A stretch of 32,859 nucleotides of DNA from a virus. Both the position numbers and the translations under genes were made by a program. Under the pieces are notes generated by a model. It was given only the letters and a program-made list of their open reading frames with translations, did not search any database and was not told the origin of the DNA. Location of the stretch: positions 1-32,859 of the IMG/VR virus record IMGVR_UViG_3300031857_000796. The stretch is one strand, 5' to 3'. Below, one piece after another: positions 4,472 through 30,290 of this stretch (positions within the stretch are counted from its first letter, which is position 1; each line of letters starts with the position of its first letter).

Positions 4472-7080
4472 TGGCTATTATTAGGTATACCAAAGATGCA
4501 ACGATACGCTATGCTTATCTTAATATATTTCCCGATCAGTTCAAAACTGAAAAGGAAAAGAAGGATGAAAGTTGGATAAAGAACACGATGGACTATTTTG
4601 CAAACAAAGCTTATGCTGAGTTTGTAAAAAACCGTGATACATTTGTAAGAAATTATGACCTTGTTAAAGGGATTCTCACTCCTGAGGACTTCTATCAAGA
4701 ACCTGAGGTGAGAAGTTTTACAGACACTCTTACAGCAAATTTAGAGCTTCCAAAATACGTTAAGCACTATTCTATTGTAACTTCTCCTATAAACACATTG
4801 ATAGGTGAAATATCAAAACGACCAGATACATATAGAGTGAAGGCTTTTGATGATGATAGTAAGTCTGAAGAACTAGAATATAAAACAGGCATCCTTCAAG
4901 AATTTATTACAAGTTCTGCTAGAAAGAAAATAATGGAGAAGCTAGCAATGGAGGGATATACAGATGAAGAAGGAGAGAATCAAGTTTCTGAAGAGCAAAT
5001 AGAGCAACTCACTGCTGACAAGATAAAGGATGAATTGGATGCTTATACATCTGTTGCTGAGAAGTGGGCAAACCACATTCTCACTTGTCAAAAGATGGAA
5101 TTCAATCTTAAAGAAAAAAGTGAAGATGCTTTTAGAGATCTTCTTGTTTCTGCAAGAGAATTCTACCATATATATGAGGACAATTCTAAACTTGGATTTA
5201 ATATAGAGGTAGCTAATCCCAAGAACACTTGGTTCCTCACCACCCCTGATAGAAAATATATTTCAGACACCACTGGTAGAGCACAAGGTGCTTATGCTGC
5301 TGGTACAGTGCAGGTGATGGAGCTTTCTGAGATAATTGAAACTTTCCCTGACATTACAAAAGAAGAGATAGACCATTTAAGATCTTCTCTCCAAGATTAT
5401 GGATTGATAAACGTAAGAGAATCAAACTTAGGAAATCCTAACGTATCTCCTGGTATTGATTCTGTAACATACGATACTTTTGACCCCCTTGTATTACAAA
5501 CAAGAATGATCATTGAAAGTGAGATGAAGGAGAATAATGATGGCCTTAAAGATTTCCTTGGTCTCACTTCCAATGTGTCATCATTTGGATACAAGTATGT
5601 TGTAGTGAGGGCTTATTGGCTTTCTAAAAAGAAAATAGGAAAGCTTATATACACAGATGAGATGGGTAATGAGCAGTCTACATTAGTGGATGAAACTTAC
5701 AAATCTGGATCAATGCCTACACAACAGTCTTTAGAATGGGGATGGATAAATCAGTGGTATCAGGGTGTGAAGATTGGACCTGACATCTATCATATTAAGC
5801 CTTTTAAACTTCTTAACTATTGTCCTATTATAGGAACCACTTTTGAGATTAAGAACACAGAAGCTCGTTCTCTTGTAGATTTGATGAAACCTTTTCAGGT
5901 GTTGTACAATGTATGTATGAACCAGCTTTACAAGCTTCTTGAGAAAGAAGTGGGTAAGGTGTATCTAACATCTATTAGACACGTTCCTGTTCCTAAAGAT
6001 GGTGATGCACAGGATGCATTAGATGTTTGGGAAATGGAAGCTAGGAATAGAGGTGTGGTATTTATTGATGATTCTCCAGAGAACCTCAAATCTCCCTCAT
6101 CATTCAACCAGTTTAGAGATATAGACCTCACACGTACACAAGAGATACAATCTCGTTACCAACTTGCTATGCAATTAAAAACTGAGTGTTGGGAACTAGT
6201 TGGTATTTCTAGACAAAGATTGGGATCTGTTACAGCTTCAGAATCTGCAACAGGTACAAATGCAGCATTGCAACAGTCTTATTCTCAAACAGAACCTTTG
6301 TTTGTAGCACATGAATATGTAATGGGTCAGCTCTACCAAGCAATTATAGATGCTGCTTTATATGTAGAAAGTCAAAAACCACAATCAACGCTTTCTTACA
6401 TTACATCTGAGGGAGAATCAGCGTTTGTTCAAGTGAATGGTACAGATCTCAGATTCCGTGATCTGAAAGTGTTCCCAACTAACAGACCTGAGGATAATCA
6501 AATGTTCCAAGAAATCAGACAACTTGCACAACCGCTTATGCAGAACGGAGGATCTCTATACGATGTAATTGAGCTCTATTCTACTAAGTCTGTAAGAGAA
6601 ATGAAGAAAACCTTCAAAACTCTTAAAGAAAGACAAGAACAAATGCAAGATCAGCAAATGCAACAGCAACAACAGCAAATGGAACAACAGCAACAAATTG
6701 CTCAAGCCCAATTGCAACAAGCTCAATTACAGCATGAACAAACTGTTGCTAATGACAACTATCAAAAACAACTTGATAGGCTTTCTAAAGAGAAGATTGC
6801 AATTATTCAAGCTACAGGATTTGGTAATGTTGAGTCTGAAGATGTTAATGCAAATGCTATTCCTGATGTATTGGAAATGAGTAAGTTGGCAGATGCTAGA
6901 GCAAAAGCTGATAAAGATTATAGCGTTAAGCTTGCTGATATAAACGCTAAGAACAAACAGTCTTCTGATAAGATGGCTCTTGAGAGAGAAAAGCTTCAAG
7001 TGGCTAGAGAGAACCAAGCTAATGATCTTGCTATAGCTAAGGAGAATGCTAAGAACAGGGCTAATAAAAAATCTAAATAA
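4471..7080 (+). CDS. Portal protein
   Basis: The product is 869 residues, probably a ring at the capsid vertex through which DNA passes and to which TerL and the neck rings attach. It directly follows TerL and is the size of crAss-like portals, which are much larger than the usual 450-600 residues. Early segments (FVKNRDTFVRNYDLVKGILTPEDF) and the central region (about 440-620, ending in GISRQRLGSVTASESATGTNAALQQS) match the portal wing/stem style. From about 715 to 765 there is a Gln-rich helix with Q-runs, then a long charged coiled coil to the end, probably a barrel or an internal extension. Confidence 0.9.
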   Translation: MAIIRYTKDATIRYAYLNIFPDQFKTEKEKKDESWIKNTMDYFANKAYAEFVKNRDTFVRNYDLVKGILTPEDFYQEPEVRSFTDTLTANLELPKYVKHYSIVTSPINTLIGEISKRPDTYRVKAFDDDSKSEELEYKTGILQEFITSSARKKIMEKLAMEGYTDEEGENQVSEEQIEQLTADKIKDELDAYTSVAEKWANHILTCQKMEFNLKEKSEDAFRDLLVSAREFYHIYEDNSKLGFNIEVANPKNTWFLTTPDRKYISDTTGRAQGAYAAGTVQVMELSEIIETFPDITKEEIDHLRSSLQDYGLINVRESNLGNPNVSPGIDSVTYDTFDPLVLQTRMIIESEMKENNDGLKDFLGLTSNVSSFGYKYVVVRAYWLSKKKIGKLIYTDEMGNEQSTLVDETYKSGSMPTQQSLEWGWINQWYQGVKIGPDIYHIKPFKLLNYCPIIGTTFEIKNTEARSLVDLMKPFQVLYNVCMNQLYKLLEKEVGKVYLTSIRHVPVPKDGDAQDALDVWEMEARNRGVVFIDDSPENLKSPSSFNQFRDIDLTRTQEIQSRYQLAMQLKTECWELVGISRQRLGSVTASESATGTNAALQQSYSQTEPLFVAHEYVMGQLYQAIIDAALYVESQKPQSTLSYITSEGESAFVQVNGTDLRFRDLKVFPTNRPEDNQMFQEIRQLAQPLMQNGGSLYDVIELYSTKSVREMKKTFKTLKERQEQMQDQQMQQQQQQMEQQQQIAQAQLQQAQLQHEQTVANDNYQKQLDRLSKEKIAIIQATGFGNVESEDVNANAIPDVLEMSKLADARAKADKDYSVKLADINAKNKQSSDKMALEREKLQVARENQANDLAIAKENAKNRANKKSK

Positions 7081-7607
7081 TGTTAGATAGTAATATTCTA
7101 ATAAGTACAATTGAGTGGATAGGGGAAAAGTGGAACAACTACCTTTCCCCAGTGTCTGTATTAAGATGCTATGAAAGTGGTGTCTTATTAAGACTAGGTA
7201 AATATAAAAAGAATTTAAAGGAAGGTCTTAACTTTAAAATACCACTAATTGACGAAATACATACATGTATAAGAACAATAGACACTTTTCCTTTACACCC
7301 TATAGATATTACAACAATAGATGGTAAACAAGTGAGTGTTGAACCAATTGTAATGTTTGAAATCACTGATCCTAAGAAGTATCTGATTGATACAAACGAA
7401 GCTGGTGGAAATATAATGGATATTTCACGTGGAACGACTGCAGACTATTTAACAGATTGTACGTGGGAAGAAATTAAAGAAAAGAAAACTCTGACAGCTA
7501 TAAAAAACTCCATCAAGAAAGAATGTGAACCTATGGGAATTCTTGTTCACAAGGTATATTTTGCTAGAGTGGTGACAACAAAAGTGTATACAGTGTTCAA
7601 AGAATAA
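7080..7607 (+). CDS. SPFH/band-7 (stomatin-prohibitin-like) domain protein
   Basis: The product is 175 residues. Residues about 25-130 carry the band-7 pattern: CYESGVLLRLGKYKKNLKEGLNFKIPLIDEIHTC, then a strand with VSVEPIVMFEITDPKKYL. In cells this family forms oligomeric membrane-associated scaffolds. Here the usual C-terminal coiled coil is absent and no clear transmembrane helix precedes the domain, so it is a minimal form. It is coupled to portal by TAATG and is last in the packaging transcript. A structural or host-membrane-associated role in head assembly is possible but unproven. The domain call is fairly secure; the function is not. Confidence 0.75.
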   Translation: MLDSNILISTIEWIGEKWNNYLSPVSVLRCYESGVLLRLGKYKKNLKEGLNFKIPLIDEIHTCIRTIDTFPLHPIDITTIDGKQVSVEPIVMFEITDPKKYLIDTNEAGGNIMDISRGTTADYLTDCTWEEIKEKKTLTAIKNSIKKECEPMGILVHKVYFARVVTTKVYTVFKE

Positions 7608-7679
7608 ACGTTTTTAGTTAGAGTAAAAAATATTAATGCTATATTATCCGCAAAAATCAACTATAACATACGTTTCTTC

Positions 7680-7710
7680 TTTGCTGTTAAACAATAGTGA
7701 TTTAGCTTTA
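7680..7710 (+). promoter_or_regulatory. Bacteroidota-type promoter P2 (capsid operon)
   Basis: TTTG at 7680-7683, a 19-nt spacer, then TAGCTTTA at 7703-7710, one mismatch from TTTG-N19-TAnnTTTG. It lies in the 132-nt gap between the SPFH gene and the scaffold candidate and would give a short leader of about 25 nt before ATG 7740. It probably gives the capsid genes their own strong late expression. Confidence 0.65.
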
Positions 7711-7739
7711 CATTGAAAACCAGATAAATACAACTACAT

Positions 7740-9002
7740 ATGGCCGAAAATTTGGAAACCCCCTCATTTGGGAACTTTAGTATTGAGAATACTATGGAGA
7801 TGGGAGCTGGTAATGCAGAACTTCTTAATGATCTGTTAGCTCCTGAAACTTCTACAAGTAGTCCTGATGATATTCAGGATATAAAGAACGATCCTCCACA
7901 AACAGCATCATCTTCCAAAAAAGAATCTTCTGAAGAAAAGAAACCTGCTCCTGAAAAAGAGGAGGATAAGTCTTTAGAAAAGTTTCTTCTTTCTGATGGT
8001 GAAGAAGAGGAAGAAGAAGAGGAAGAAGTTGCTGCTCCTGTTTCAAAAACTAAAAGTAAAACTCCTGTAAAGGAAGAAGCTCCTTCTGAAAATCAAGAAG
8101 AAGATGGTGAGCAAGAAGTGACACAATTTAGTGCTCTTGCTAAAGACCTTTTAAAACTTGGTGTGTTTTCTTCAGATGAAGATGATGAAGAAGAAATCCA
8201 AACTCCTGAGCAATTCCTTGAGAAGTTTCAAAAGGAAAAACAAAAGGGTGCTATTGAAGTGGTAAACAACTTCATTGGACAGTTTGGTGAAGACTACCAA
8301 AAAGCATTTGATGCAATTTTTGTAAAAGGTGTTGATCCAAAAGAATATTTCGGTGCATACAACAATATTGTAAGCTTTGCTGATATGGACCTTTCAGAAG
8401 AGTCCAATCAAGTGAGAGTGATAAAACAAGCTCTTGCAGATCAAGGTTTTGAAGATGATGATGTTGAAACTGAGGTTGAACGTCTTAAGAACTATGGTGA
8501 TTTAGAAACAGTGGCTACAAAACACCACAAGGTGTTGGTTAAAAAAGAAGCTGCTAAATTACAACAGCTTGAACAGAAGTCTCAACAAGAACTTCAACAA
8601 AGACAAGCTATAAAGCAAGAATATATTAGTAACGTACAATCTGTTCTTCAAGAGAAGCTTAAAACAAAAGAGTTTGATGGTATTCCCATCAACCCCAAAC
8701 TAGCTAACGAACTACAAGATTTCTTATTAGTGGATAGATATAGAACAAATTCTGGAGAAACAATTACAGAATTTGACAAAGCTATTCTGGAGTTGAAGAG
8801 ACCTGAGAACCATGAAAAAAAGGTGAAGGTTGGACTCTTACTCAAAATCCTAGAAAAAGATCCCACTCTATCCACAATTCAAAAAACAGGAATAAGTAAG
8901 AAGTCTGATCAATTATTTGGTGAGGTGGCAAGACAAGTGACTAAATCTAAGTCGTCATCATCCTCTTCCTCCCCATCAAAAAGTAATTCATGGTTTTTAT
9001 AA
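7740..9002 (+). CDS. Acidic coiled-coil protein, likely capsid scaffold
   Basis: The product is 420 residues. The N-terminal 160 residues are low-complexity and very acidic, including eight consecutive Glu at 88-95 and DEDDEEE near 145-151. Residues about 160-390 are helical and charged with Gln-rich coiled coils. The end is a Ser-run followed by WFL. Composition and position directly before the major capsid gene are typical of scaffolding proteins, which fill the prohead and are removed before packaging. No protease triad is visible. A permanent core protein is the alternative. It is the first gene after promoter P2. Confidence 0.7.
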   Translation: MAENLETPSFGNFSIENTMEMGAGNAELLNDLLAPETSTSSPDDIQDIKNDPPQTASSSKKESSEEKKPAPEKEEDKSLEKFLLSDGEEEEEEEEEVAAPVSKTKSKTPVKEEAPSENQEEDGEQEVTQFSALAKDLLKLGVFSSDEDDEEEIQTPEQFLEKFQKEKQKGAIEVVNNFIGQFGEDYQKAFDAIFVKGVDPKEYFGAYNNIVSFADMDLSEESNQVRVIKQALADQGFEDDDVETEVERLKNYGDLETVATKHHKVLVKKEAAKLQQLEQKSQQELQQRQAIKQEYISNVQSVLQEKLKTKEFDGIPINPKLANELQDFLLVDRYRTNSGETITEFDKAILELKRPENHEKKVKVGLLLKILEKDPTLSTIQKTGISKKSDQLFGEVARQVTKSKSSSSSSSPSKSNSWFL

Positions 9003-17232: not shown

Positions 17233-18111
17233 ATGTCTTGTCATTCAGATAGAATAGTTCGTGTAACATATCCAAAGAACTGTACTCCAGAAGTGGATGA
17301 TTCTCAACAACTTCTGTATAACGGTCCTGCTTTAGCATGTATTGATGTACAGACAAATCAAACATTGAATGATGCTATAAAGGAAATAGATGCTCTTATC
17401 TGTCAAACATTGAATCAATTAAGTACCACCACAACCACATCTTCTTCAACAACACAATCACCTTCTACCACCACTACTTCTAGCAGTAGCACTTCTACAT
17501 CAACATCTACCAGCAGTACATCAACTTCTACTAGTACCAGTACAAGCACATCTACTAGTACAAGTACCTCTTCAACTAGCACATCAACTTCCACTAGTAC
17601 GTCTACATCTACAAGCACTTCTACTAGTACATCAACATCTACCAGTACTAGTTCATCTACCAGCACTAGCACTTCAACATCAACAACTACTAGTACAACT
17701 ACTTGTGCACCTGTTACAATTAGGATACAAACTGAATATAACGGAAGTACTAATGAAATTACATTTAATTTGCTTGATGACATAACCAGTAGTCCTATAA
17801 ATGCACCTTCATCTTTTACTGTAAACCTTGCAAGTTTTCTACTTTATGAAACAGAAACTGATTGTAATAATTCAATATCAAGTTGCACTTCTGCCATTAC
17901 TAGTTCATTTACTTTCCCAGCAGGGCAACAAACATATACACAATCATCAACAGCTTGTTCTCCTTGCTCAAACTATCCATATTCAAGAAGAGGGTCTATA
18001 ACAATTAACGGTACAGAATTATTTAATACTGACACTTTAATTATAAACTCTTGTTTTACTATTGAAGCAGATATTCCAACAAATTGTGAAGTAACATTAT
18101 GTCCTGAATAA
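17233..18111 (+). CDS. Mucin-like Ser/Thr-repeat fibre protein
   Basis: The product is 292 residues. Residues 1-63 form an anchor module (LLYNGPALACIDVQTNQTLNDAIKEIDALICQTL) similar to the two other fibre N-termini. Residues about 65-157 are almost pure Ser/Thr, an extended, probably flexible stalk. Residues 158-292 are a beta-rich domain with Cys pairs (DCNNSISSC, CSPCS) and an end SITINGTELFNTDTLIINSCF resembling that of the 15851 protein. It is likely a surface-exposed fibre or adhesin. Heavy Ser/Thr invites O-glycosylation, which Bacteroidota carry out, but that is only a possibility for a cytoplasmic phage protein. Confidence 0.65.
   Translation: MSCHSDRIVRVTYPKNCTPEVDDSQQLLYNGPALACIDVQTNQTLNDAIKEIDALICQTLNQLSTTTTTSSSTTQSPSTTTTSSSSTSTSTSTSSTSTSTSTSTSTSTSTSTSSTSTSTSTSTSTSTSTSTSTSTSTSTSSSTSTSTSTSTTTSTTTCAPVTIRIQTEYNGSTNEITFNLLDDITSSPINAPSSFTVNLASFLLYETETDCNNSISSCTSAITSSFTFPAGQQTYTQSSTACSPCSNYPYSRRGSITINGTELFNTDTLIINSCFTIEADIPTNCEVTLCPE
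17425..17703 (+). repeat. In-frame degenerate Ser/Thr-codon repeat (6-bp period)
   Basis: About 280 bp of alternating Thr (ACN) and Ser (AGY or TCN) codons, with many ACTAGT palindromes. Third positions and the Ser codon class vary freely, so the DNA is not an exact microsatellite. The protein-level pattern appears to be what is kept. Confidence 0.85.
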
Positions 18112-18170: not shown

Positions 18171-18719
18171 ATGACAGTATTAATTCAACTTACAACCGCA
18201 GGAACTGATACAGGACCTTTCAATCTGTATTCAGATTTAGATAGTTTTGGTGTTCCTTTTGAAGTGGGTGTATCAAAAGTGGATCTTTTAGCAGGGTATT
18301 TGTCCTTATTAGTTCCTGATTTTACCACTACAATAAGAGTGTGTTCTACATCCTTGTATTGTGCAAATTGCATAGATATTACAGTAGAACCTCTACCAAC
18401 CACTACTACCACATCAAGCTCATCTACCTCTACTAGCACTACAACAAGCACTACTACATCTATAACTTATTATACATTTAGTCTTGTTTTTGATCCTTGT
18501 TCATCAGCCACTCCAACTTTCACTGCATATTCAAGTTCATCTTCTTTAGGAGTTGGAGTTTCTATTTGGCAAGATACAGCATTAACTGTGCCTTATAACT
18601 GCTCTGCAGGTGGTCCAGGAAACTTCTGTTTTATAGGTCTTGCTAGTAACCCATTAGGAGGTTATTGGAGATTACCAGATGGTTCAAATGTAATTGATGA
18701 CACTGGATCTTGTAGTTAA
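18171..18719 (+). CDS. Two-domain fibre module protein joined by a Thr/Ser linker
   Basis: The product is 182 residues. The N-terminal beta domain (1-72: TGPFNLYSDLDSFGVPFEVGVSKVDLLAGY, then IRVCSTSLYCANC) resembles the start of the 29421 protein. A Thr/Ser linker covers about 77-99. The C-terminal domain (100-182: GVSIWQDTALTVPYNC, GGYWRLPDGSNVIDDTGSC) resembles a segment of the muzzle insert near 28235-28370. It therefore looks like a free-standing pair of modules that elsewhere sit inside larger proteins. Near-identical short direct repeats flank the gene. Probable surface role; no catalytic signature. Confidence 0.6.
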   Translation: MTVLIQLTTAGTDTGPFNLYSDLDSFGVPFEVGVSKVDLLAGYLSLLVPDFTTTIRVCSTSLYCANCIDITVEPLPTTTTTSSSSTSTSTTTSTTTSITYYTFSLVFDPCSSATPTFTAYSSSSSLGVGVSIWQDTALTVPYNCSAGGPGNFCFIGLASNPLGGYWRLPDGSNVIDDTGSCS

Positions 18720-18892: not shown

Positions 18893-20128
18893 ATGCAGGA
18901 AAACAACCATCTCTTACATCAGCTTGAACAAATGCTTCGTTGGAAAAAAAGTAAGAAAGTTTATGCTGAAAAACTCGGTGTTTCAGAATTTATAGTGGAT
19001 GATCTTCTAAAAGAACTTAAAAACAGAGAACAGGTGGGAAATGATGCTGAAGCAGGGAACTACATAAGTGCTCTTGAAGAACTTGTTGTAAAGGTTAATA
19101 ATGAAAAAGGAACATTAGAATCTACAATTGAGACAAGCTTTGAACCAAAAGATGATATTGAACTAGCTAAGATTCATAAGATAAACTTAGAAAAATATAA
19201 AATATCCAACTATTGGACTAAACAAAAGTCTAACGGTAAGTTCACATCTTCTGTATTTGCCACTCTTAGAAAACCAGCTGATTATACACCAGAGGACTTT
19301 TCTAAGTTCTTAGAGAGTTATGTTCCAAAAGAGGTGTTAGTTAGAAAGATTGATTGTGGAAATATTAATCTTGAAGGTGTAGATATTGAGGTTTCTATAT
19401 CTGACTTTCATTTAGCAAAGAAAACATTAGAAGGAGAAACTATAGAAGATAAGAAAGAGCAATATATGAACGTTCTTACAGATCTTGTAGAGAAGGTGAG
19501 AAACTCTTTTGAGATAAACAAGATAGCTTTTCCAATTTCTAATGACTTTTTCCATACAGATAACTACCAGAATCAAACCACCAATGGTACTCCTCAAGAT
19601 GTCCTAGTGGGATATGATAATGAATATGAGGAAGGGTTTGATTTGTTAGTGCAAGCTATTTCCTATCTACAAGAAGTGAGTGATAAAGTTGAAGTGATTC
19701 TTGTTCAAGGGAATCATGATCGCACTAAGTCATTCTACTTAGCCCATGCTTTAGAAGTGTTCTTCAAGGACAATTATAAAGTGTTCTTTCAAAGAAACCA
19801 TTCCACTACAAAATACACTGTATTAGGAAACACCTTTATAGGATATCATCATGGTAACTGTAAAATAGATGATCTTCCTTTAGTTTTTGCTACAGGAAAA
19901 AATGCTTTAACTTTTGGAGCAGCTGAGTATAGAGAAATACATACAGGCGATAAGCACCACTATATGGCAAAAGAAATAAAGGGTGTTAGGATTCAACAAA
20001 TGCCTTCTCTTTCAGGAACAGATAGATGGCACGCTGATAACAATTATGTAAATAATATTAGAGCAGGACTTGTTCTTATATACCATCCTGACTTTGGTAA
20101 GGTTGGAGAATTTGAAAGTCGAATATAA
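18893..20128 (+). CDS. Metallophosphoesterase (calcineurin-like) with N-terminal HTH-like segment
   Basis: The product is 411 residues. The N-terminus (12-45: RWKKSKKVYAEKLGVSEFIVDDLLKEL) reads as a helix-turn-helix. The C-terminal half has the calcineurin-like signature in order: DFH (171-173), ND (217-218), GNHD (273-276), a His pair YHHGN (318-322) and GDKHH (352-356). These would bind two metal ions to hydrolyse phosphoesters. Such genes are common in crAss-like phages. The substrate is unknown; a nuclease like Mre11/SbcD or a nucleotide phosphatase are options. The HTH suggests nucleic-acid binding. It is first in the operon behind P3, ahead of neck genes. Confidence 0.85.
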   Translation: MQENNHLLHQLEQMLRWKKSKKVYAEKLGVSEFIVDDLLKELKNREQVGNDAEAGNYISALEELVVKVNNEKGTLESTIETSFEPKDDIELAKIHKINLEKYKISNYWTKQKSNGKFTSSVFATLRKPADYTPEDFSKFLESYVPKEVLVRKIDCGNINLEGVDIEVSISDFHLAKKTLEGETIEDKKEQYMNVLTDLVEKVRNSFEINKIAFPISNDFFHTDNYQNQTTNGTPQDVLVGYDNEYEEGFDLLVQAISYLQEVSDKVEVILVQGNHDRTKSFYLAHALEVFFKDNYKVFFQRNHSTTKYTVLGNTFIGYHHGNCKIDDLPLVFATGKNALTFGAAEYREIHTGDKHHYMAKEIKGVRIQQMPSLSGTDRWHADNNYVNNIRAGLVLIYHPDFGKVGEFESRI

Positions 20129-21337: not shown

Positions 21338-21985
21338 ATGAATAAAAAATTTGAATACAAGTTTGGTGATAAATTTGGAGATTTGACATTTTTGGAAGAA
21401 GATTTTCATGAAAAAGAAGTTACAGGGTTTCAGAAATATAGAAAGGCATTAGTTCAGTGTTTCTGTGGAAGAAAGTTTATAACTAGAATTAGTGGTTTAA
21501 AAAATGGAAACACAACATCTTGTGGATGTAAAAGAAAAGATGGATTATTGAAAAGAATAACTAGGCATAATATGAGTGCATCTTCAGAATATGCTTCTTG
21601 GGAAGCAATGAAAGCAAGATGTCTTAATCCTAAAAATAAGTTTTATAGTAATTACGGAGGAAGAGGAATAAAAGTTTGTGAAAGATGGTTAGATTTCAAA
21701 AACTTTATAAATGATATGGGAAACAAACCATCAAAAGACTATTCTATAGATAGAATAGACGTTAATGGTAATTATTGTCCAGAAAATTGTAAATGGTCAG
21801 ATAGATACACTCAAGATAGAAATAGAAGAACGAATGTAAAGTTTGTAATAAATGGTGAAAGTAAGATATTAATGGATATATCAAAAGAGTATAATTTACA
21901 CCAACAAACCATACGAGATAGAATTTCTAAAGGTATGACAATTGAAGAGGCTGTTTCTAAATCCTATAAATACACAAAAAAATGA
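21338..21985 (+). CDS. Free-standing HNH endonuclease, probable homing type
   Basis: The product is 215 residues. A zinc-knuckle-like start (C41-x-C43, C62-x-C64) is followed by YASWEAMKARCLNPKNKFYSNYGGRGIKVCERW (85-117). The HNH core YSIDRIDVNGNYCPENCKW (135-153) is typical of phage homing endonucleases. A C-terminal NUMOD-like helix-turn-helix (ISKEYNLHQQTIRDRISKGMTIEEAV, 181-206) would read DNA. The gene is visibly richer in A/T at third positions than its neighbours. It sits between two tail-connector genes, 5 nt after one and ATGA-overlapping the next, so it spreads without disrupting them. No intron boundary is evident. Confidence 0.85.
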   Translation: MNKKFEYKFGDKFGDLTFLEEDFHEKEVTGFQKYRKALVQCFCGRKFITRISGLKNGNTTSCGCKRKDGLLKRITRHNMSASSEYASWEAMKARCLNPKNKFYSNYGGRGIKVCERWLDFKNFINDMGNKPSKDYSIDRIDVNGNYCPENCKWSDRYTQDRNRRTNVKFVINGESKILMDISKEYNLHQQTIRDRISKGMTIEEAVSKSYKYTKK

Positions 21986-22905
21986 GTTATTATTATAAAT
22001 ACAACTTCATAAGTCCAGAACCAGTATATGCTACTGTTATGGAGGAACTTAAGTCGTATATGGATACAGGGGCGGTTGACAATTTGTTGTTTCCCACTTA
22101 TCTTGATAAGTGTTTAAGAAAGTTGGGAAGAGCTACGTATGTTATTTCTGAACAGCTGCTTAATATAGAAGATTTTCAAGCTAGGCTTCCAGATAACTTC
22201 TTTGCTGTTAGAGAAGCTTGGTTGTGTACAACAGTGAATGGTTATCCCTATCAGACAGCCAATTCTTTTTATTCTCAAGCTGCTTCTGAAACAACAATAC
22301 AGGTGAGTCCTGTTATATCAAACGGTGTTCCTTGTACAAACCTTGAATGTACAACAGGATGTCCTGAGTGTATGCCTGAGCTTATTCAAGCTGTATACAA
22401 GACTAATAACCAGGTGAACATAGCCTACACAAAACAATATCTGCTCAAACCAGGAAACATATCTGTAAGAGCTGATTGTTCTTTAGATTGTGCAAACTTT
22501 GGATCTTCTCAAGCAGATAGTTTTGACATTAGAGATAATAAGTTTGTCACTAATTTTAGATGTGGCAATGTTTATTTAGTGTTCTATGCTACAGAATACG
22601 ATAATAACGGTAATCAGATGATTCCTGACAATTATCGTATTAGAGAGTATATTGAAGCGTTTATTAAATATAAGGTGTTTGAAACACTTACAAATCAAAC
22701 AAATGATGAAACTTTCAATCAACTTCAGACAAAATTAGCTTATTACAAACAATTAGCTGATGAGGCCTTTATAATGGCTGATATTGAGATTAAGAAACAA
22801 GATGTATATGCTAAACAAAGAAGAATCAAAAATGATTTGAACAGGTTTAACATGTATGAACTTCCTAATAGAATAAGTAGATATGGCTGGAGAAGAAACA
22901 ATTAA
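21982..22905 (+). CDS. Tail connector / tubular protein (P22 gp4-like position)
   Basis: The product is 307 residues. Helical segments (EPVYATVMEELKSYMDTGAVDNLLFPTYLDKCLRKLG) flank a beta-rich middle with Cys clusters (CTNLECTTGCPEC near 113-125). The long C-terminal helix is charged (NQLQTKLAYYKQLADEAFIMADIEIKKQD). The order ring protein, HU-like, connector, large muzzle protein fits crAss-like neck modules, where this gene is compared with P22 gp4 or T7 gp11-like proteins. It overlaps the muzzle start by 23 nt. The connector assignment is by position and overall pattern. Confidence 0.7.
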   Translation: MSYYYKYNFISPEPVYATVMEELKSYMDTGAVDNLLFPTYLDKCLRKLGRATYVISEQLLNIEDFQARLPDNFFAVREAWLCTTVNGYPYQTANSFYSQAASETTIQVSPVISNGVPCTNLECTTGCPECMPELIQAVYKTNNQVNIAYTKQYLLKPGNISVRADCSLDCANFGSSQADSFDIRDNKFVTNFRCGNVYLVFYATEYDNNGNQMIPDNYRIREYIEAFIKYKVFETLTNQTNDETFNQLQTKLAYYKQLADEAFIMADIEIKKQDVYAKQRRIKNDLNRFNMYELPNRISRYGWRRNN

Positions 22906-25900
22906 GAAGATAAAAGACTTAGTTAGTCCTGATTCAAGTGCTATAAACATGAATAATAATGTTGCACAGACAGGATTGAACATGGACCAATCTGTTAATC
23001 AGGTTGGAAAAGGTTCTCTTACGTATGCATTGAATGCTGCTGTAGAGAACTTTGATGCTAATTCTGTTAACTACCAGAATGAACCTGGTAATGAGTTTTG
23101 CGTAGAGTTTCCTTCAGGGTTCTCTTTAATAGGTCATCATTTAATAGCTGAACAAAACAAACATATATTCTTTTTGACAAACTCTGATACAGGAGATTCT
23201 CACATAGGATATATGGATAATAACGATTGTGTCTATAAGATTTATGTAAATGCAAAGTGTTTAAATTTTAACATTAAGAATCCTATTCATAAGATAGTGC
23301 ATAAGATTACAAACTGCACTACAGAAATTTATTGGACAGATGGTATCAATCCTAGAAGATACTTAAATCTAACAGACATTCCTTACACTCTTCAATCAGG
23401 ATCTCCTTTCTGCGATCCTAGATTTAGTGATGAGGTGGATTGTAATCAATTAAAGTTACAGCCTAACTTTAAAATCCCTCTTCTTTCCATAACAGATGTT
23501 ATAAATGGAGGAAATTTAATATCAGGAACCTATCAGTTTGCTATACAATATTCAGATGCCACTGGTAATCCTTACACTTCATATTATTCTATCACTAACC
23601 CAACACCTATTGCTGATACACAAATAAACACGCCTAACTTTGATTATGCGGTGGGCAAGTCTATTAGAGTGAGAGTGACAGATCTTGATGAAACTGGACA
23701 ATTTCAGTATTTTAATTTAGCTGTAATAAAAACAGTGAACGATATTCCTTCTGTAGAATTAGCAGGAACATATTTTATAGACGAGCTTACAAAAGAAATA
23801 GTATACACTGGTCAGAATGTTACACAGATAAGATTGACAATCAATGACATATTTGAAAAATATCCTTATTATGAGATAGCTCAAGATTTGACAGTGGTAC
23901 AAGATGTTCTTGTTTGGGACAATCTTACATCTATTGATAGAATCAATTATCAAGAAATAGCTAGTGAAATAAATCTTCAATGGCAAACATATAAGATTCC
24001 AGCAGATGAAAATTATGCTGATGAGCTAAATGCTACAAATCTTAGGGGGTATTTAAGGGATGAGGTGTATGCGTTTGAAATTGTTTTTCTTCTTAAGAAT
24101 GGTAAACAAACAGATGGATTTCACATTCCTGGAAGGGTGAAAAATTCATTTGAAATATCTGTTCCAGATGTTTCTACAACAAATCCTGATTTTATAGGAG
24201 AACCTGATTACATAGATCCTACAACAGGAATTGGATATAGTGAATATTGGAAAATATACAACACTGCTACAGACTTAGGAGTTGCAACAGGAGATAAGAT
24301 AGGAAATGCCACTCCTCATAGATATGGCGATTTTGCATATTGGGAATCTGAAGAAACATATCCTTGTAACATAGATGTTTGGGGAAATTTAGCAAATGAA
24401 CCAATAAGACACCATAAGTTTCCAGATGTTCTTGTAAGTCCTATATTTGAAAGTGCTACACCAACTATTACAGCTAATAAATATGTTGTACAAATGCAAA
24501 CAGCTGATGCTGTTTTTCCTATTGGTGTTAAAGTGGATGTTGCACAAATTCAAAATTTAATACTTACATCAAATCTTACAGATGAACAAAAAGCTGACAT
24601 AGCTGGATTTAAAATAGTGAGAGGTGATAGAAGCACGAATAAATCCATTATAGGAAAGGGTATATTAAGAAATGTTGGTTCTTATCAAAGACAAGAACAA
24701 ACATTTTTCTTTCCCAACTATCCTTACAATGAACTTGAAGCTGATGTATTTCTTTCTAAAAACAATAATGCATTTGCAAAAGAAGCTGAGCCATGGTTGG
24801 TCACTTGTATAACTGGAGATTCTTCAGGAAAATGTGATATAGAATATATAGATGTAGACACTGGAAAAAGAACTGTTAAAAAAATAGATGCTGGTAAAAC
24901 AGAAGAGTTTTGTGCTGTTGGAAGACCAAAATATCTTTCTGGAAAAGCTGATATAGGTCCTGGAAACTATGATGTTTATAAAGTTACAGCAGATGGTTGT
25001 GCTGGAATGCGTTATATGTGGAATGATCCTTTTTCTACAAATAATTCTACATTTACATACTACAATCCTTGGTTGGATGGTTGGAGTAAAGCTGGACCAA
25101 GAACAAAAGATGATTGGGCAACTCTTCTAATAGGATCTACTTCTGGAAGTATAGGTGTTGATGGAGGATGTCCTTTTTCATTTTGTCCTCTTCCTTGTTT
25201 AATAGGTGGTGGTATTGGAGGATTATTTGGAGGTTCAGGAAATTGTTTATGTCCAGTGCAATGTTGTAGTAAAACAGAAATTACATTACAACCAAGTGTT
25301 TTGCAAGATGAAGGTCAAATAATCACTGACAGTGGAAAAAGAAAAGTTGGTAGAAGAAGTAAACGTAGTTGTTCTGGAAAAGAAAGCATATCTTCTATTG
25401 GATCCACTACAGAAGCAGCTTTGAGAATGGTGTTTAATTCTCCAGAAACTTCTTTTGGAAATCCTTTCTTAGGAAATGTAATTAAGCTTGAAAATGTAAT
25501 GTTTGGTGGTGGAAAGGGACATTTTGTTCAAGTGAACAATAATGCAAACTACAAACTTCTTAGTAAAGAGGCTCAAGTGGATGCATTAAATAGTTCTAGA
25601 GAAATAGCAAATATAGGAGGATTTAGTGCAGCATCAATGTTTGCAGCATATCAATCTTATTTAACCATCTATGTTAATGGTATTACAAGAAAGAATTATG
25701 CATATTCTTACAATTCTATAGCCAGTTATGATTATTTTTCAAACATTCCCAATGGAATTGGTATAAAGCAAAGACCACTTGATATTGTTCAATATTTGAT
25801 TCCTGGTGTATTAAATGTTGGGGATACAAACAATATAAACAATTACCAAAGAGAATCTTCTTTATATTTAAAAACTACAGATGATTTAATAAACACCACT

Positions 25901-28900
25901 GTATTCTATAAAGAATATAGAATTTGTAATAACAATCCTATATCCACTCCAACAAAACCAGAAGATGATTTTACATTTAATTATATTGATACAGATTATA
26001 AAAATCAATCTGTAACAATAACTCCAGGAAATTGTACAACTCCACCTATACAATCTGTAATAGTTCCTGTAAAAGTTTCTGGAAATACAAACTTTACATT
26101 ACAAGTGGTAAATTCAGGATCTGTATTTAAAACAGGTATAGCCACCCCACCTCTACCCTATCCAAATCAAACAAACACTTTAATTAATTCTACTACAGGA
26201 CTTCCAAACATATCTGACAAATCAAGAATTATTATTTCTGAGGTGGGAGCTTGTAATGCTCCTGGAAAAGAGCAAGACATTAATGTAGTTTCTTATTACG
26301 GATCTTTGAAGAATATAAACATTAGTCAATGGGGACAGATATATTCTTACATTACAATAGATACAGGATTTCAAAAAAATGTTGACTATACAATAATTCC
26401 TAGTCCTGTAACAATTTTTGGAGGAGATACATTTATAAGTAGATTTACATTCAAAACAAAGCTTCCATTTTTTATAGATAATCGTGTGGGTGCTCCTGAT
26501 GATAGTGATATATTCTATGATGAAATAGGTAATGTTGCCTATCCAAAATACTGGCACTCTTCAAGATCTATTACAGAAAGTTATAACAATGGGACACCAT
26601 TGTTAACAAACATAATATCTTATAAGGCAACTAGTTTCGATTGCCCTAACGATCCCTCACTAATACCTCCTCCTACACAACCTAACACACCAGGAACATA
26701 TAGAACATTCTATGATGGATATTTCTATTTGTTTGCATATGGAATTCCTAATTTTTATTGTGAAAGTTCTTACAATACAGATTTAAGACAAGCATTTAAT
26801 CCTAGAGAAGGTGATTTCTGGCCTCACGTAAGTACAGGTATTCCTGATGATTGGGTGCAAGAGAGCTTTGTTTCTATAGCTAACGATAATACATATTATT
26901 ACAATAGAACCTTTAGTAAGCAGAATCAGGAGAACTTTTTCTCCCATCTTCCTCCAGATTGGAAAGAAAAACTCTGTTTTACAAACTATCCTTTTAGAGC
27001 CATATATTCAGATCCTCAAGACATAAATGCTGATAATAGGGTGAATAACTGGTTGCTCTATCGTTCTGTATCATTTTTTGATTTTCCTCAGAACTACGGA
27101 AAACTTACATCTTTGGATGGTATTCAGAATAGAGCTGTATTAGCAAGGTTTGAAAATAAGTCTTTGCTTTACAACACTCTACTCACTGTTGAAACAAGTA
27201 ACCCACAAGCTGCTTATTTAGGAAACAGTACATTGTTTAAATCTTCTCCTCCTATTGATTTTGCAGAAACAGATCTTGGATATGTAGGAAGTCAGAATAA
27301 GTTCTTATTAAAGATTCCTCAAGGACAAGTTACAGTGGATGCTAAAAGAGGACAGGTGTTCCTTATTTCAGGAAACCAAGCTACAGATTTGTCAGCATTT
27401 GGATCTGGTATGAATAGGTTCTTTACAGACCATCTAGCATTTGAGATTTTAAGATTTTTCCCTGATTTAGAGCAAGTTATAAATAACGAGAGGATAATTA
27501 TTCCTGGTGTAAATACAGACAATCATTTTAATGGAATAGGAATCCATGGTGTATATGACAGTAAATATGATAGATTAATACTTACAAAATTAGACTATGT
27601 TCCTTTAAATAGTGATGTTAAATATGATTATAGTACAAAAGACTTTTATATAGAAGAAACTATTGGAGGAACGGTAATTAGAACAATTGTTTATCTTTCA
27701 GAAAAAGAATATTTCTGTAATAAGTCTTGGACAATTTCTTTCAACTTTAACACCAAGACATGGATAAGCTTTCATAGTTATCTTCCTAACTTCTATATGG
27801 GAGAAAACAATTTCTTCTATTCGGGAATAAATGGATGTTGTGATGGACTTGATGTTAGTTTAAGTGGATTTGGTGCAATATCTACAAGTAGTCTTGCAGA
27901 AGTTGTTCCAAGAACCACCACCACTACATCCACTCTTTATGTTCCCCCACCACCACCATCTTATGATTGTGATTTGGTAGGAACAGCATATTCTATAGAT
28001 TGTTCTTTAGATGGTACAGCAACTGATGTAACACCAACTACAACAACCACTACAACATGTGATTTTGGAACTAATTCATATATATTTATAAATGGATTTG
28101 TTATAGATTCAATCACTGTAGATTCAACAACATCTTTAGAAAGTGCTTGTAATGGTGCTAATTATTTCAACACTTCTATTAATTTAAACTGTTCTTTTTC
28201 TTTTTTAGAAATAAGCGTATTTGCAGACAGCCTGTCTTTAGGACAAATTGTTTATTCGTCTCCTTGCACACCTCTCACTGATGGTTGGTATTTTACATCT
28301 AATTATCAAGGTGATGGATTAATATATCATATTATGGATGGAGAAATAGTTGAAATAACTTCTTGTATATGCACTGTTACAGAAACCACTACACTTGCTC
28401 TTGACAATATTGTTGAATGTTGTTCTTATTTAACTGTTTCTGGAAATAGAATTGTATTCAATTATAATGGATTATTCTATATTTTAAATATTCCTGGATA
28501 CATATCTTCTATTGGAACAGCATTTAGAGAAAATTATTTTTGGGCAATTAATACACAGATTAATGAATGGAGTTTAACACAAAATCCTTTCTCAGCAACA
28601 TTCAATAGAAACATTGCTTTTCCTGTAGGATTTACAACATCTGCAGGAATTGTATCAATAAACAATACAACGTTGATTGCTGTGAATAGCACACCTTCTC
28701 CTCAGAAGGTTGTAGAGCTTGATATTACCACTCTTACAGCATCTTTAACAAATAAGTTTGATTTACAAACAGATAGAATAGCAATTGGTAATTTCTTGTA
28801 TACAGTAGATGGTAAGTTGATATTAATTAACCAAGACACTATTACATCTGATTACTACTTATCTCAATATGACTATTCTACAGGAACTCTTGAAGTGGAT

Positions 28901-29410
28901 TTTAATATGGGATCTTTTGCAGCAGTTGGAATGTATTATTGTGAGTGTGTAATATATCTATTTGATGCAAATTCTCAAATAAATATATTAGTGGATGTTT
29001 CTCCAGATCCTGCAGGATTTGCTCTATCTACACTATTCTCAGGTGATAATTCTGGGCTACTTGATGGAATTTCTCAATATATGGGATGTGTAGTTAAATC
29101 TCTAACAGGAAATCCATTGTTAACAACAACAACAAGTACCACTTTACAAACATATTGTTATACAGTAGAACTTAGCGGAGAGGGTAACTTCTACTGGTTG
29201 GATGGTTCTGGAAACACTCAATCTATTTCAAATACAGATTTTCAAACTATTACAATATGTGCTCAGTATAATTCCTTCTCTTCTGATGGAACATTAATAT
29301 TCACATTATGTTCAGATTATTTACCATGTACCACTGAAGGAGATTGTCCCACTACAACAACAACTAGCAGTACATCTTCAACAACAACCTCTACAACAAC
29401 AACACCCTAA
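22883..29410 (+). CDS. Giant muzzle / tail stabilization protein with inserted Thr-linked modules
   Basis: The product is 2175 residues. Residues 1-1660 are beta-rich and match the crAss-like stabilization (P22 gp10-like) or muzzle protein in size and style, for example KGSLTYALNAAVENFDANSVNYQNEPGNEFC near the start and TISFNFNTKTWISFHSYLPNFYMGENNFF at about 1617-1645. From about 1676 on, Thr-rich linkers alternate with modules: one ending in GWYFTSNYQGDGLIYHIMDGEIVEITSC (about 1805-1832), a propeller-like stretch (about 1843-2075), a short Cys-bearing domain (about 2090-2150) and a terminal Thr tail. The true C-terminal part seems to be in the next gene. It probably closes the tail and contacts the host. 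Confidence 0.8.
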   Translation: MAGEETIKKIKDLVSPDSSAINMNNNVAQTGLNMDQSVNQVGKGSLTYALNAAVENFDANSVNYQNEPGNEFCVEFPSGFSLIGHHLIAEQNKHIFFLTNSDTGDSHIGYMDNNDCVYKIYVNAKCLNFNIKNPIHKIVHKITNCTTEIYWTDGINPRRYLNLTDIPYTLQSGSPFCDPRFSDEVDCNQLKLQPNFKIPLLSITDVINGGNLISGTYQFAIQYSDATGNPYTSYYSITNPTPIADTQINTPNFDYAVGKSIRVRVTDLDETGQFQYFNLAVIKTVNDIPSVELAGTYFIDELTKEIVYTGQNVTQIRLTINDIFEKYPYYEIAQDLTVVQDVLVWDNLTSIDRINYQEIASEINLQWQTYKIPADENYADELNATNLRGYLRDEVYAFEIVFLLKNGKQTDGFHIPGRVKNSFEISVPDVSTTNPDFIGEPDYIDPTTGIGYSEYWKIYNTATDLGVATGDKIGNATPHRYGDFAYWESEETYPCNIDVWGNLANEPIRHHKFPDVLVSPIFESATPTITANKYVVQMQTADAVFPIGVKVDVAQIQNLILTSNLTDEQKADIAGFKIVRGDRSTNKSIIGKGILRNVGSYQRQEQTFFFPNYPYNELEADVFLSKNNNAFAKEAEPWLVTCITGDSSGKCDIEYIDVDTGKRTVKKIDAGKTEEFCAVGRPKYLSGKADIGPGNYDVYKVTADGCAGMRYMWNDPFSTNNSTFTYYNPWLDGWSKAGPRTKDDWATLLIGSTSGSIGVDGGCPFSFCPLPCLIGGGIGGLFGGSGNCLCPVQCCSKTEITLQPSVLQDEGQIITDSGKRKVGRRSKRSCSGKESISSIGSTTEAALRMVFNSPETSFGNPFLGNVIKLENVMFGGGKGHFVQVNNNANYKLLSKEAQVDALNSSREIANIGGFSAASMFAAYQSYLTIYVNGITRKNYAYSYNSIASYDYFSNIPNGIGIKQRPLDIVQYLIPGVLNVGDTNNINNYQRESSLYLKTTDDLINTTVFYKEYRICNNNPISTPTKPEDDFTFNYIDTDYKNQSVTITPGNCTTPPIQSVIVPVKVSGNTNFTLQVVNSGSVFKTGIATPPLPYPNQTNTLINSTTGLPNISDKSRIIISEVGACNAPGKEQDINVVSYYGSLKNINISQWGQIYSYITIDTGFQKNVDYTIIPSPVTIFGGDTFISRFTFKTKLPFFIDNRVGAPDDSDIFYDEIGNVAYPKYWHSSRSITESYNNGTPLLTNIISYKATSFDCPNDPSLIPPPTQPNTPGTYRTFYDGYFYLFAYGIPNFYCESSYNTDLRQAFNPREGDFWPHVSTGIPDDWVQESFVSIANDNTYYYNRTFSKQNQENFFSHLPPDWKEKLCFTNYPFRAIYSDPQDINADNRVNNWLLYRSVSFFDFPQNYGKLTSLDGIQNRAVLARFENKSLLYNTLLTVETSNPQAAYLGNSTLFKSSPPIDFAETDLGYVGSQNKFLLKIPQGQVTVDAKRGQVFLISGNQATDLSAFGSGMNRFFTDHLAFEILRFFPDLEQVINNERIIIPGVNTDNHFNGIGIHGVYDSKYDRLILTKLDYVPLNSDVKYDYSTKDFYIEETIGGTVIRTIVYLSEKEYFCNKSWTISFNFNTKTWISFHSYLPNFYMGENNFFYSGINGCCDGLDVSLSGFGAISTSSLAEVVPRTTTTTSTLYVPPPPPSYDCDLVGTAYSIDCSLDGTATDVTPTTTTTTTCDFGTNSYIFINGFVIDSITVDSTTSLESACNGANYFNTSINLNCSFSFLEISVFADSLSLGQIVYSSPCTPLTDGWYFTSNYQGDGLIYHIMDGEIVEITSCICTVTETTTLALDNIVECCSYLTVSGNRIVFNYNGLFYILNIPGYISSIGTAFRENYFWAINTQINEWSLTQNPFSATFNRNIAFPVGFTTSAGIVSINNTTLIAVNSTPSPQKVVELDITTLTASLTNKFDLQTDRIAIGNFLYTVDGKLILINQDTITSDYYLSQYDYSTGTLEVDFNMGSFAAVGMYYCECVIYLFDANSQINILVDVSPDPAGFALSTLFSGDNSGLLDGISQYMGCVVKSLTGNPLLTTTTSTTLQTYCYTVELSGEGNFYWLDGSGNTQSISNTDFQTITICAQYNSFSSDGTLIFTLCSDYLPCTTEGDCPTTTTTSSTSSTTTSTTTTP

Positions 29411-29420
29411 AGAAACGTAA

Positions 29421-30290
29421 ATGACTAAAGTTGTTTATATAAAGTTAACAAGATCTGCACCTAATTCAGGACCCTTTATTATTTATGATAATTTTGGGAA
29501 CGTGTTAGCTATAAATGTTTCTAAGCAGGAATTAATTAATGGGGTGGCTTACACTGTAGATGATGATGTTAACCGTTTACTAATAGAATCAAAAGGAAGA
29601 TGTAAGTTTAGAAAGTCTATTCCTGTTGATGATAATATTAGTATTATTGAATTTGCAAATTCAAATTATACACAAACTGTAACAGGTTGTGTTTGGAGGC
29701 ATCTTAAGAACCCCCAAATATACAACACTTATTATGGTGTGACAGAACCCTACATTATTGAATATCCTTTTGCCTATCAATATTACGATGAGATATTACA
29801 GAATGTAAAAGATTATACAAAGGTGTATCAATACCTTCCAGACCAATTTGGGGTGTTTGATGATAATAGGAAGATACAATTAGATGATGCATGGTTTAAC
29901 AAAGCTGTTCTATATAATGATCAACAGTCTTCAGGAACATTGGAATTAGTGGCTAAACCAATGAACAACTTAAAGGAATACATGAAGTATCCTATGTATA
30001 ATGCTGAAAGTAAAACAATTACGTATACAAAGAGTGATAATTTCTACCAGTATAACACATTCTGGTCTTTAGTGAAGAACAAGAAAGAATTGCTCTTCAC
30101 CAAGAGTTGTGAATCTCTCTCTATAGATAAGATAGTGAATCAATCAAACATGGACTATGGAAAGAGATCATATAGAAAAGAACCTTTAAGAGCTAAGGAT
30201 TTGAAGGTGAGACACATATTGGATAATCGTTCTGATATACACCTTGTCTCCCAATTCATTGTTACACCTAGTCAAATATCTTTCAAATAA
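29421..30290 (+). CDS. Muzzle protein C-terminal part as a separate gene
   Basis: The product is 289 residues. Residues 1-62 (SGPFIIYDNFGNVLAINVSKQELINGV) are a beta domain like the N-terminus of the 18171 fibre protein. Residues 90-289 (VWRHLKNPQIYNTYYGVTEPYIIEYPFAYQYYDEILQNVKDYTKVYQYLP, ending SIDKIVNQSNMDYGKRSYRKEPLRAKDLKVRHILDNRSDIHLVSQFIV) read like the natural C-terminus of a muzzle protein. The start is 10 nt after the previous stop. TAA directly precedes the ATG in this frame, excluding simple frameshift fusion; reinitiation is likely. It probably assembles with the large protein. Confidence 0.7.
   Translation: MTKVVYIKLTRSAPNSGPFIIYDNFGNVLAINVSKQELINGVAYTVDDDVNRLLIESKGRCKFRKSIPVDDNISIIEFANSNYTQTVTGCVWRHLKNPQIYNTYYGVTEPYIIEYPFAYQYYDEILQNVKDYTKVYQYLPDQFGVFDDNRKIQLDDAWFNKAVLYNDQQSSGTLELVAKPMNNLKEYMKYPMYNAESKTITYTKSDNFYQYNTFWSLVKNKKELLFTKSCESLSIDKIVNQSNMDYGKRSYRKEPLRAKDLKVRHILDNRSDIHLVSQFIVTPSQISFK

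Follow-up and report, generated by a model that had tools for sequence, protein, structure and literature searches.

The muzzle, the gate protein of the tail tip, has been described as highly conserved among crassviruses. Its structurally described representative is gp44 of PhicrAss001 (PDB 7qok, 7qol, 8ckb; Pfam PF25731), a single chain in which insertions and length variation have been reported for the crass and IG2 regions and in which, by the published domain limits, the residues past 1021 come after IG2; disulfides have also been reported in the tail and portal vertex of this phage (PMC10172136). Four further one-chain muzzles, those of Leptolyngbya phage Lbo-JY46 (1654 aa), csAssE-Sib (2257 aa), Cellulophaga phi17:2 (2289 aa) and Flavobacterium Fpv3 (1961 aa), present the same order of parts and share 22-35% identity with the N-terminal chain considered here. 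Unlike the phages just named, uncultured crAss-like phages of one large group encode the tail-tip gate protein as two, and sometimes three, chains. No description of split, threonine-linked or freshwater muzzles was found in the open-licence literature of PubMed Central.

The DNA analysed, referred to below as the window, comes from IMG/VR, where it forms a record of 32,859 bases, and carries the block of structural genes of a crAss-like phage, among them those for the terminase, the portal, the crass major capsid protein (Crass_capsid) and ring proteins 1 and 2. An HNH endonuclease gene (21338-21985; PHROG 374, E 2.3e-59) adjoins the ring protein genes, a DNA repair exonuclease-like gene (18893-20128; PHROG 704) lies within the structural block, and the protein encoded at 17233-18111, which is without a family match, contains a run of about 80 aa of alternating Ser and Thr. 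The gene product P0001, referred to as the N chain, matches the Pfam model crAss_MUZ PF25731 (E 2.8e-36; 125.5 bits against a cut-off of 27) as well as PHROG 37948 and 15100, and it occupies the same position beside ring protein 1 as gp44 does. Its N-terminal part is homologous to gp44 by both Pfam and profile comparison, and by this homology the body of the chain would comprise the gate, the IG domains, the crass domain and most of the propeller. The following gene product, P0002 or the C chain, matches columns 1589-1781 of the 1783 of PHROG 15100 with its residues 90-287, that is, the C-terminus of the family. A sequence search of the PDB with P0001 or P0002 alone gave no match. The positions of these features are collected in Table 1.

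Table 1. Features of the split muzzle locus and neighbouring genes in the window (5' to 3').
Feature	Position	Strand	Remarks
P0006, separate small protein: GPF domain, Thr linker and one module	18171..18719	+	GPF profile E 1.7e-8
Tail ring protein 1	21982..22905	+	Pfam PF24228, E 2.2e-13; directly before the muzzle
N chain (P0001), whole ORF	22883-29410	+	2175 aa
N chain, muzzle body, residues 1-1651	22883..27835	+	Pfam PF25731; PHROG 37948/15100; profile match to gp44 (7qok)
Loop 1, residues 1592-1602	27656..27688	+	unbroken in the window; second insertion or break site in relatives
Cys1652-Cys1653, immediately past FFYSGING	27836..27841	+	Cys1652 is the covarying partner
N chain, free C-terminal tail	27836..29407	+	524 aa
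N-chain tail modules	28058-28372; module of about 200 aa from 28415; short Cys module 29153-29347	+	
Break	29408..29420	+	TAA 29408-29410, A-rich 10-nt gap, in-frame TAA abutting the next ATG
C chain (P0002), whole ORF	29421-30290	+	289 aa
C chain, GPF domain, residues 1-88	29421..29684	+	106/106 split loci, 0/50 others
C chain, Cys90, two residues ahead of W in WRH	29688..29690	+	covaries with Cys1652
C chain, muzzle C-terminal part	29688..30287	+	C-terminus of PHROG 15100; L186 model against gp44 1022-1371

Comparison with the one-chain muzzles has revealed where the ancestral polypeptide was interrupted. In tblastn searches, the matches of P0001, which reach residue 1649, and those of P0002, which start at residue 90, fall on one ORF of Lbo-JY46, 18 nt apart (83444/83425), and on one ORF of csAssE-Sib, 21 nt apart (71804/71826), and the same junction is recovered in an alignment of the four one-chain proteins. 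At this site, referred to as loop 2, Lbo-JY46, csAssE-Sib, phi17:2 and Fpv3 have an unbroken chain with 3-8 residues, unlike the window, where about 612 residues intervene. The original prediction, which held that the muzzle C-terminus lies in the next gene and that one ancestral chain has become two with a Thr-linked array between them, is thus upheld, with the C-terminus comprising residues 90-289 of P0002, the two ORFs running as predicted and contiguous homologues covering both parts with neither gap nor insert. Its limits have needed correction: the muzzle-like sequence ends at residue 1651 with FFYSGING rather than near 1660, the first linker begins at 1678, and of the array of roughly 600 residues only a 524-aa tail is made up of modules, the 88 aa before Cys90 being a separate folded domain. 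The second gene is not a separate entity in all relatives, as its muzzle part follows the preceding blade within a single chain in 50 loci of the one-chain or loop 1-only type, the closest one-chain relative L186 among them, and the segment at residues 1676-2175 is not a conserved part of muzzle proteins.

The two genes are not rejoinable by a single indel, because P0001 ends in a TAA at 29408 and a further TAA in the P0002 frame occupies 29418-29420. A sequencing or assembly error has been ruled out by these two in-frame stops together with the occurrence of the same break, with two genes, in 178 distinct loci. An alternative genetic code has also been rejected, as the N chain stops at TAA (140) or TGA (4) in 144 loci and the other genes of the window can be read in the usual way.

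Related loci were gathered from IMG/VR with five queries. The first set comprised 156 distinct loci, and a second set of 72 further distinct loci of the window's clade brought the split loci to 178 (106 + 72). A search with the Lbo-JY46 C-terminus as a single query found nothing in IMG/VR, while alignment queries succeeded. The first set contains 40 loci encoding one chain, 96 broken at loop 2, 10 broken only at loop 1 and 10 broken at both sites, the last encoding three chains. Loop 2 is short in the 40 one-chain loci, at 1-16 aa, whereas the 106 split ones have 119 aa or more at this site; the 72 further loci are all broken there (at least 138 aa). The sole intermediate, L091, is broken at loop 1 and carries an unbroken insert of 80 aa at loop 2. 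Both chains are present in every first-set locus with enough flanking sequence, the exceptions being loci at contig edges and the window's own sub-locus. On a maximum-likelihood tree built from the blocks around the site, the loop 2 break constitutes one change, with no reversion seen, and a single origin fits this tree. The split clade (70 rows, support 99) stands beside the unbroken locus L186, and identity between the C part of L186 and the split C chains amounts to 56-63%. No relative of P0002 turned up in a scan of bacterial and archaeal genomes, and the genomes scanned therefore provide no link to a host.

The position of the break within the fold has been approached through a fused stand-in, an AlphaFold model of the last 494 aa of L186. 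Foldseek ranks gp44 first for this model (2e-11), and VIA-align places it on gp44 1022-1371 with a Z of 13.0 over 317 residues, above other podovirus nozzle proteins. Matches to the propeller span L186 40-310, and the break maps to 297-302, in a turn between two strands. The model thus tentatively locates the break at the hairpin turn of the last propeller blade, just ahead of the C-terminal part, a detail kept tentative because residues 282-319, the junction included, fall below pLDDT 50. On this mapping, the muzzle part of the C chain would correspond to the last propeller strand and the gp44 C-terminal region to 1371, which probably joins the ring/tail barrel. Since the published insertions lie in the crass and IG2 regions, loop 2 is a different site, nearer the tail barrel; the array does sit in a loop, as had been predicted, although this appears to be the hairpin turn near the tail-barrel end and not the distal crass domain. 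When predicted alone, the muzzle part of P0002 reaches a pLDDT of 26-63, against 77-93 for most of the same part in the fused L186, in two runs based on alignments of unequal depth and diversity.

In the first set, each of the 106 split C chains opens with a domain of about 88 aa, the GPF domain (MTKVxxIKLTxxGxxxGPFxIxDxxGNV...), which a profile search found to be absent throughout the fetched stretch in the 50 other loci. Its mean identity in the clade is 44% and it is predicted well alone, with a pLDDT of about 82-92. The domain also heads small Thr-linked proteins, in which it is followed by a Thr linker and modules where the C chain has the muzzle C-terminus; P0006 of the window, whose N-terminal domain is the same as that of the C chain, belongs to this type, and a GPF-bearing gene lies between the two chains in 21 of the 106 loci. 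GPF is a conserved start domain and not another module of the array. Its nearest folds are small beta-sandwiches, headed by T9SS C-terminal domains (Z 5.8 over 65 residues), a likeness which is weak because such a Z falls within the range of common arrangements. Pfam and NCBIfam sorting-domain models gave no match to it even at E 10, no family was found for it in the sequence libraries searched, and a Foldseek search with P0002 returned no match under 0.001. A role as a T9SS signal domain was rejected, the top structural rows having Z values under 8 without sequence support. It may be that a GPF-type gene recombined into loop 2, whereby GPF and its start codon would have become the head of the muzzle C-terminus.

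The residues next to the break show a concordant pattern. Right after FFYSGxN the N chain has either CC or a single C, and in the C chain the position two residues ahead of the W in WRH is either a C or another residue. Of the 178 distinct loci, 126 have both the first N-chain cysteine and the C-chain cysteine and 52 have neither, with no mismatch, the last 72 of these loci having been fetched after the pattern had been seen. This pair ranks at the top of 12,882 pairs of N and C columns (corrected mutual information 0.453; next 0.28; SD 0.039), and its states have changed about three times on the tree, always jointly. Cys1653 is kept in 70 of 70 loci checked. Among 42 loci fused at loop 2, a junction cysteine occurs only in L091, within its own insert. 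Cys1652 and Cys90 map to positions 298 and 302 of L186, on either side of a three-residue hairpin turn. Taken with the covariation, this suggests that the pair probably bridges the chains by a disulfide in most of the clade; such a bridge would not be essential, because 52 loci have neither cysteine. Pairwise distances in the N part correlate at 0.44 with those in the C part and at 0.40 with those in GPF, an uninformative comparison.

Beyond the junction, the constant feature of the clade is the break and the variable feature is the array. N-chain tails vary in length between 28 and 648 aa, and 70 loci display 41 architectures; in the window the order is Thr/Ser linkers, two short DCxLxGTA motifs, the modules and a Thr end, and the stretch 28001-29407 has no Pfam or PHROG match. 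Pairs of loci with cores about 90% identical often have no tail sequence in common, while some loci near 71% core identity have tails in common over more than 80% of their length. The tails contain 23% Thr, 4.6% Cys, 0.8% Lys and 0.7% Arg, as compared to 4.0% Lys and 3.2% Arg in the body, and low Lys/Arg with high Thr/Cys was observed in the arrays of all split loci, window 27836-29407 included. The two shortest tails (L017 and L030; 28-31 aa) have no modules and are still broken. A stop inside the inserted array had been foreseen, and the break itself is confirmed, whereas an array that came first and was broken later is not demonstrated, because these two loci are broken without modules and all 178 loci of the clade are split. 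A Fib_succ_major domain (PF09603), absent from the window, ends the broken first chain in L041, L079, L081 and L191 and occurs as a separate gene in L107, and DUF285 and DUF11 are found at a chain end in L091. Proteins with the Fib_succ_major domain are known as targets of diversity-generating retroelements. In L107, the region between the chains (5226-8719) encodes a GPF protein, a 126-aa ORF and a 787-aa protein with fn3-like and Fib_succ_major domains.

A second site, loop 1, lies about 50 residues upstream of loop 2, and the chain is broken there in 20 of the 156 distinct loci. These breaks amount to eight changes on the tree, and thus have arisen or been lost repeatedly. Three unbroken relatives of the loop 1-only group (L089, L123 and L099) carry an in-frame vWA-like domain at this loop (Pfam VWA and VWA_4; E values of 8e-6 to 0.01, none reaching the cut-off and some only just short of it), and the broken loci of the group have Cys-rich ends on both sides, so that a break arising within an insert is a plausible order of events. 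The vWA-like domains (L089:7110-8117, L123:7858-8841, L099:8086-8841), with Cys-rich flanks in L089 and L123, would be adhesion-type domains within a tail gate. Near locus position 8600, L092, L094, L108, L113 and L114 have a loop 1 break with at least 9 cysteines in the upstream tail and nine on the downstream head; these chains are perhaps also joined by disulfides. Among the described phages, phi17:2 (L084) and Fpv3 (L085) have an in-frame loop 1 insert of more than 300 aa with a DTTSM or DRSGS motif, which is only a motif resembling the DxTGS type of vWA-like domains.

Taking these observations together, a two-chain muzzle assembled in trans and carrying an exchangeable display array is the preferred reading, with a probability of roughly 75%. 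The N chain would provide the gate, the IG domains, the crass domain and the propeller as far as the penultimate strand of its last blade; it would then exit the fold at the hairpin turn and run on as a flexible, Thr-linked array whose C-terminus is free. The C chain would begin with its own GPF domain and supply the other strand of the hairpin and the C-terminal region (to 1371 in gp44). Both would rebuild the ancestral fold, giving the same hexameric gate, with the cysteine pair bridging the chains at the broken turn in most of the clade, and at the free terminus arrays could lengthen, shorten or be swapped while staying clear of the gate fold. As noted, gp44 is one chain with its insertions in crass and IG2, while the window appears to combine an insertion and a break in the last propeller blade. 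Assembly in trans has indirect support, in that the C part is conserved (75% mean identity in the clade, against 79-80% for the neighbouring N blocks), is kept in every case, gives a poor model alone and a mostly good one when fused, and varies in step with the N chain next to the break.

Most of these properties make it improbable that the C chain has left the muzzle to become a separate virion protein, with the N chain having a substitute C-terminus: its separate gene with its own start domain would suit such a departure, yet its C part remains conserved within the clade and towards the fused L186, is retained throughout and changes with the N chain at the junction. Joining of the chains in translation, by frameshifting or stop read-through, so that some single-chain muzzle is still made, is more doubtful still and can be given very little weight. 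The chains are adjacent, and some relatives, a minority, have a C frame that stays open over tens of codons ahead of the ATG; nonetheless, a stop abuts this ATG in the window and in 22 of 70 loci, at most two open codons precede it in 41 of 70, the N-chain stop is TAA in 140 of 144 split loci (near-duplicates counted), and the GPF start is always an ATG with an A-rich upstream sequence like that of other window genes. Because in most loci the C frame is blocked immediately ahead of its ATG, recoding was rejected as the main explanation. The disulfide faces a stronger competitor, namely that the cysteine concordance results from shared descent or from exchange of the array as a cassette. With only about three joint changes on the tree, and with both codons flanking the array, this account is a serious one, although it falls somewhat short of even odds: both cysteines are absent in one-chain relatives, none of the 178 loci has one cysteine only, and the mapped positions flank the turn where a cross-strand pair would sit.

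As regards the array, its modules are probably recognition modules, and host recognition through receptor or glycan binding at the surface is suggested because lectin-type, vWA-like and other surface folds occupy the same sites in relatives. A tail with no binding role, a neutral or spacer extension accumulating at a free terminus, would accord with the shrinkage of tails in L017 and L030, the low charge of the arrays and the lack of family matches among the window's modules. Such a tail is unlikely, considering that Cys-rich modules which look folded reappear in distant loci whereas close loci differ, that lectin-type Fib_succ_major and DUF285 domains occupy the same kinds of chain ends, and that one-chain relatives have vWA-like domains in loop 1. 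A broader proposal, held tentatively and at slightly under even odds, is that the breaks at loops 1 and 2, which lie on either side of the last propeller blade, are a repeated way to gates of two or three separately translated chains, with disulfide-stitched hairpins and free ends that mount interchangeable host-recognition arrays alongside separate GPF adhesins.

With a whole clade having a two- or three-product muzzle, an essential gated tail machine would tolerate a cut within its propeller, and this cut would serve to carry fast-changing sequence. The array would be a direct place to seek host-range determinants in environmental crAss-like phages, and the clade would be a naturally occurring case in which to test if a split beta-propeller can be held together by a disulfide where it is broken.
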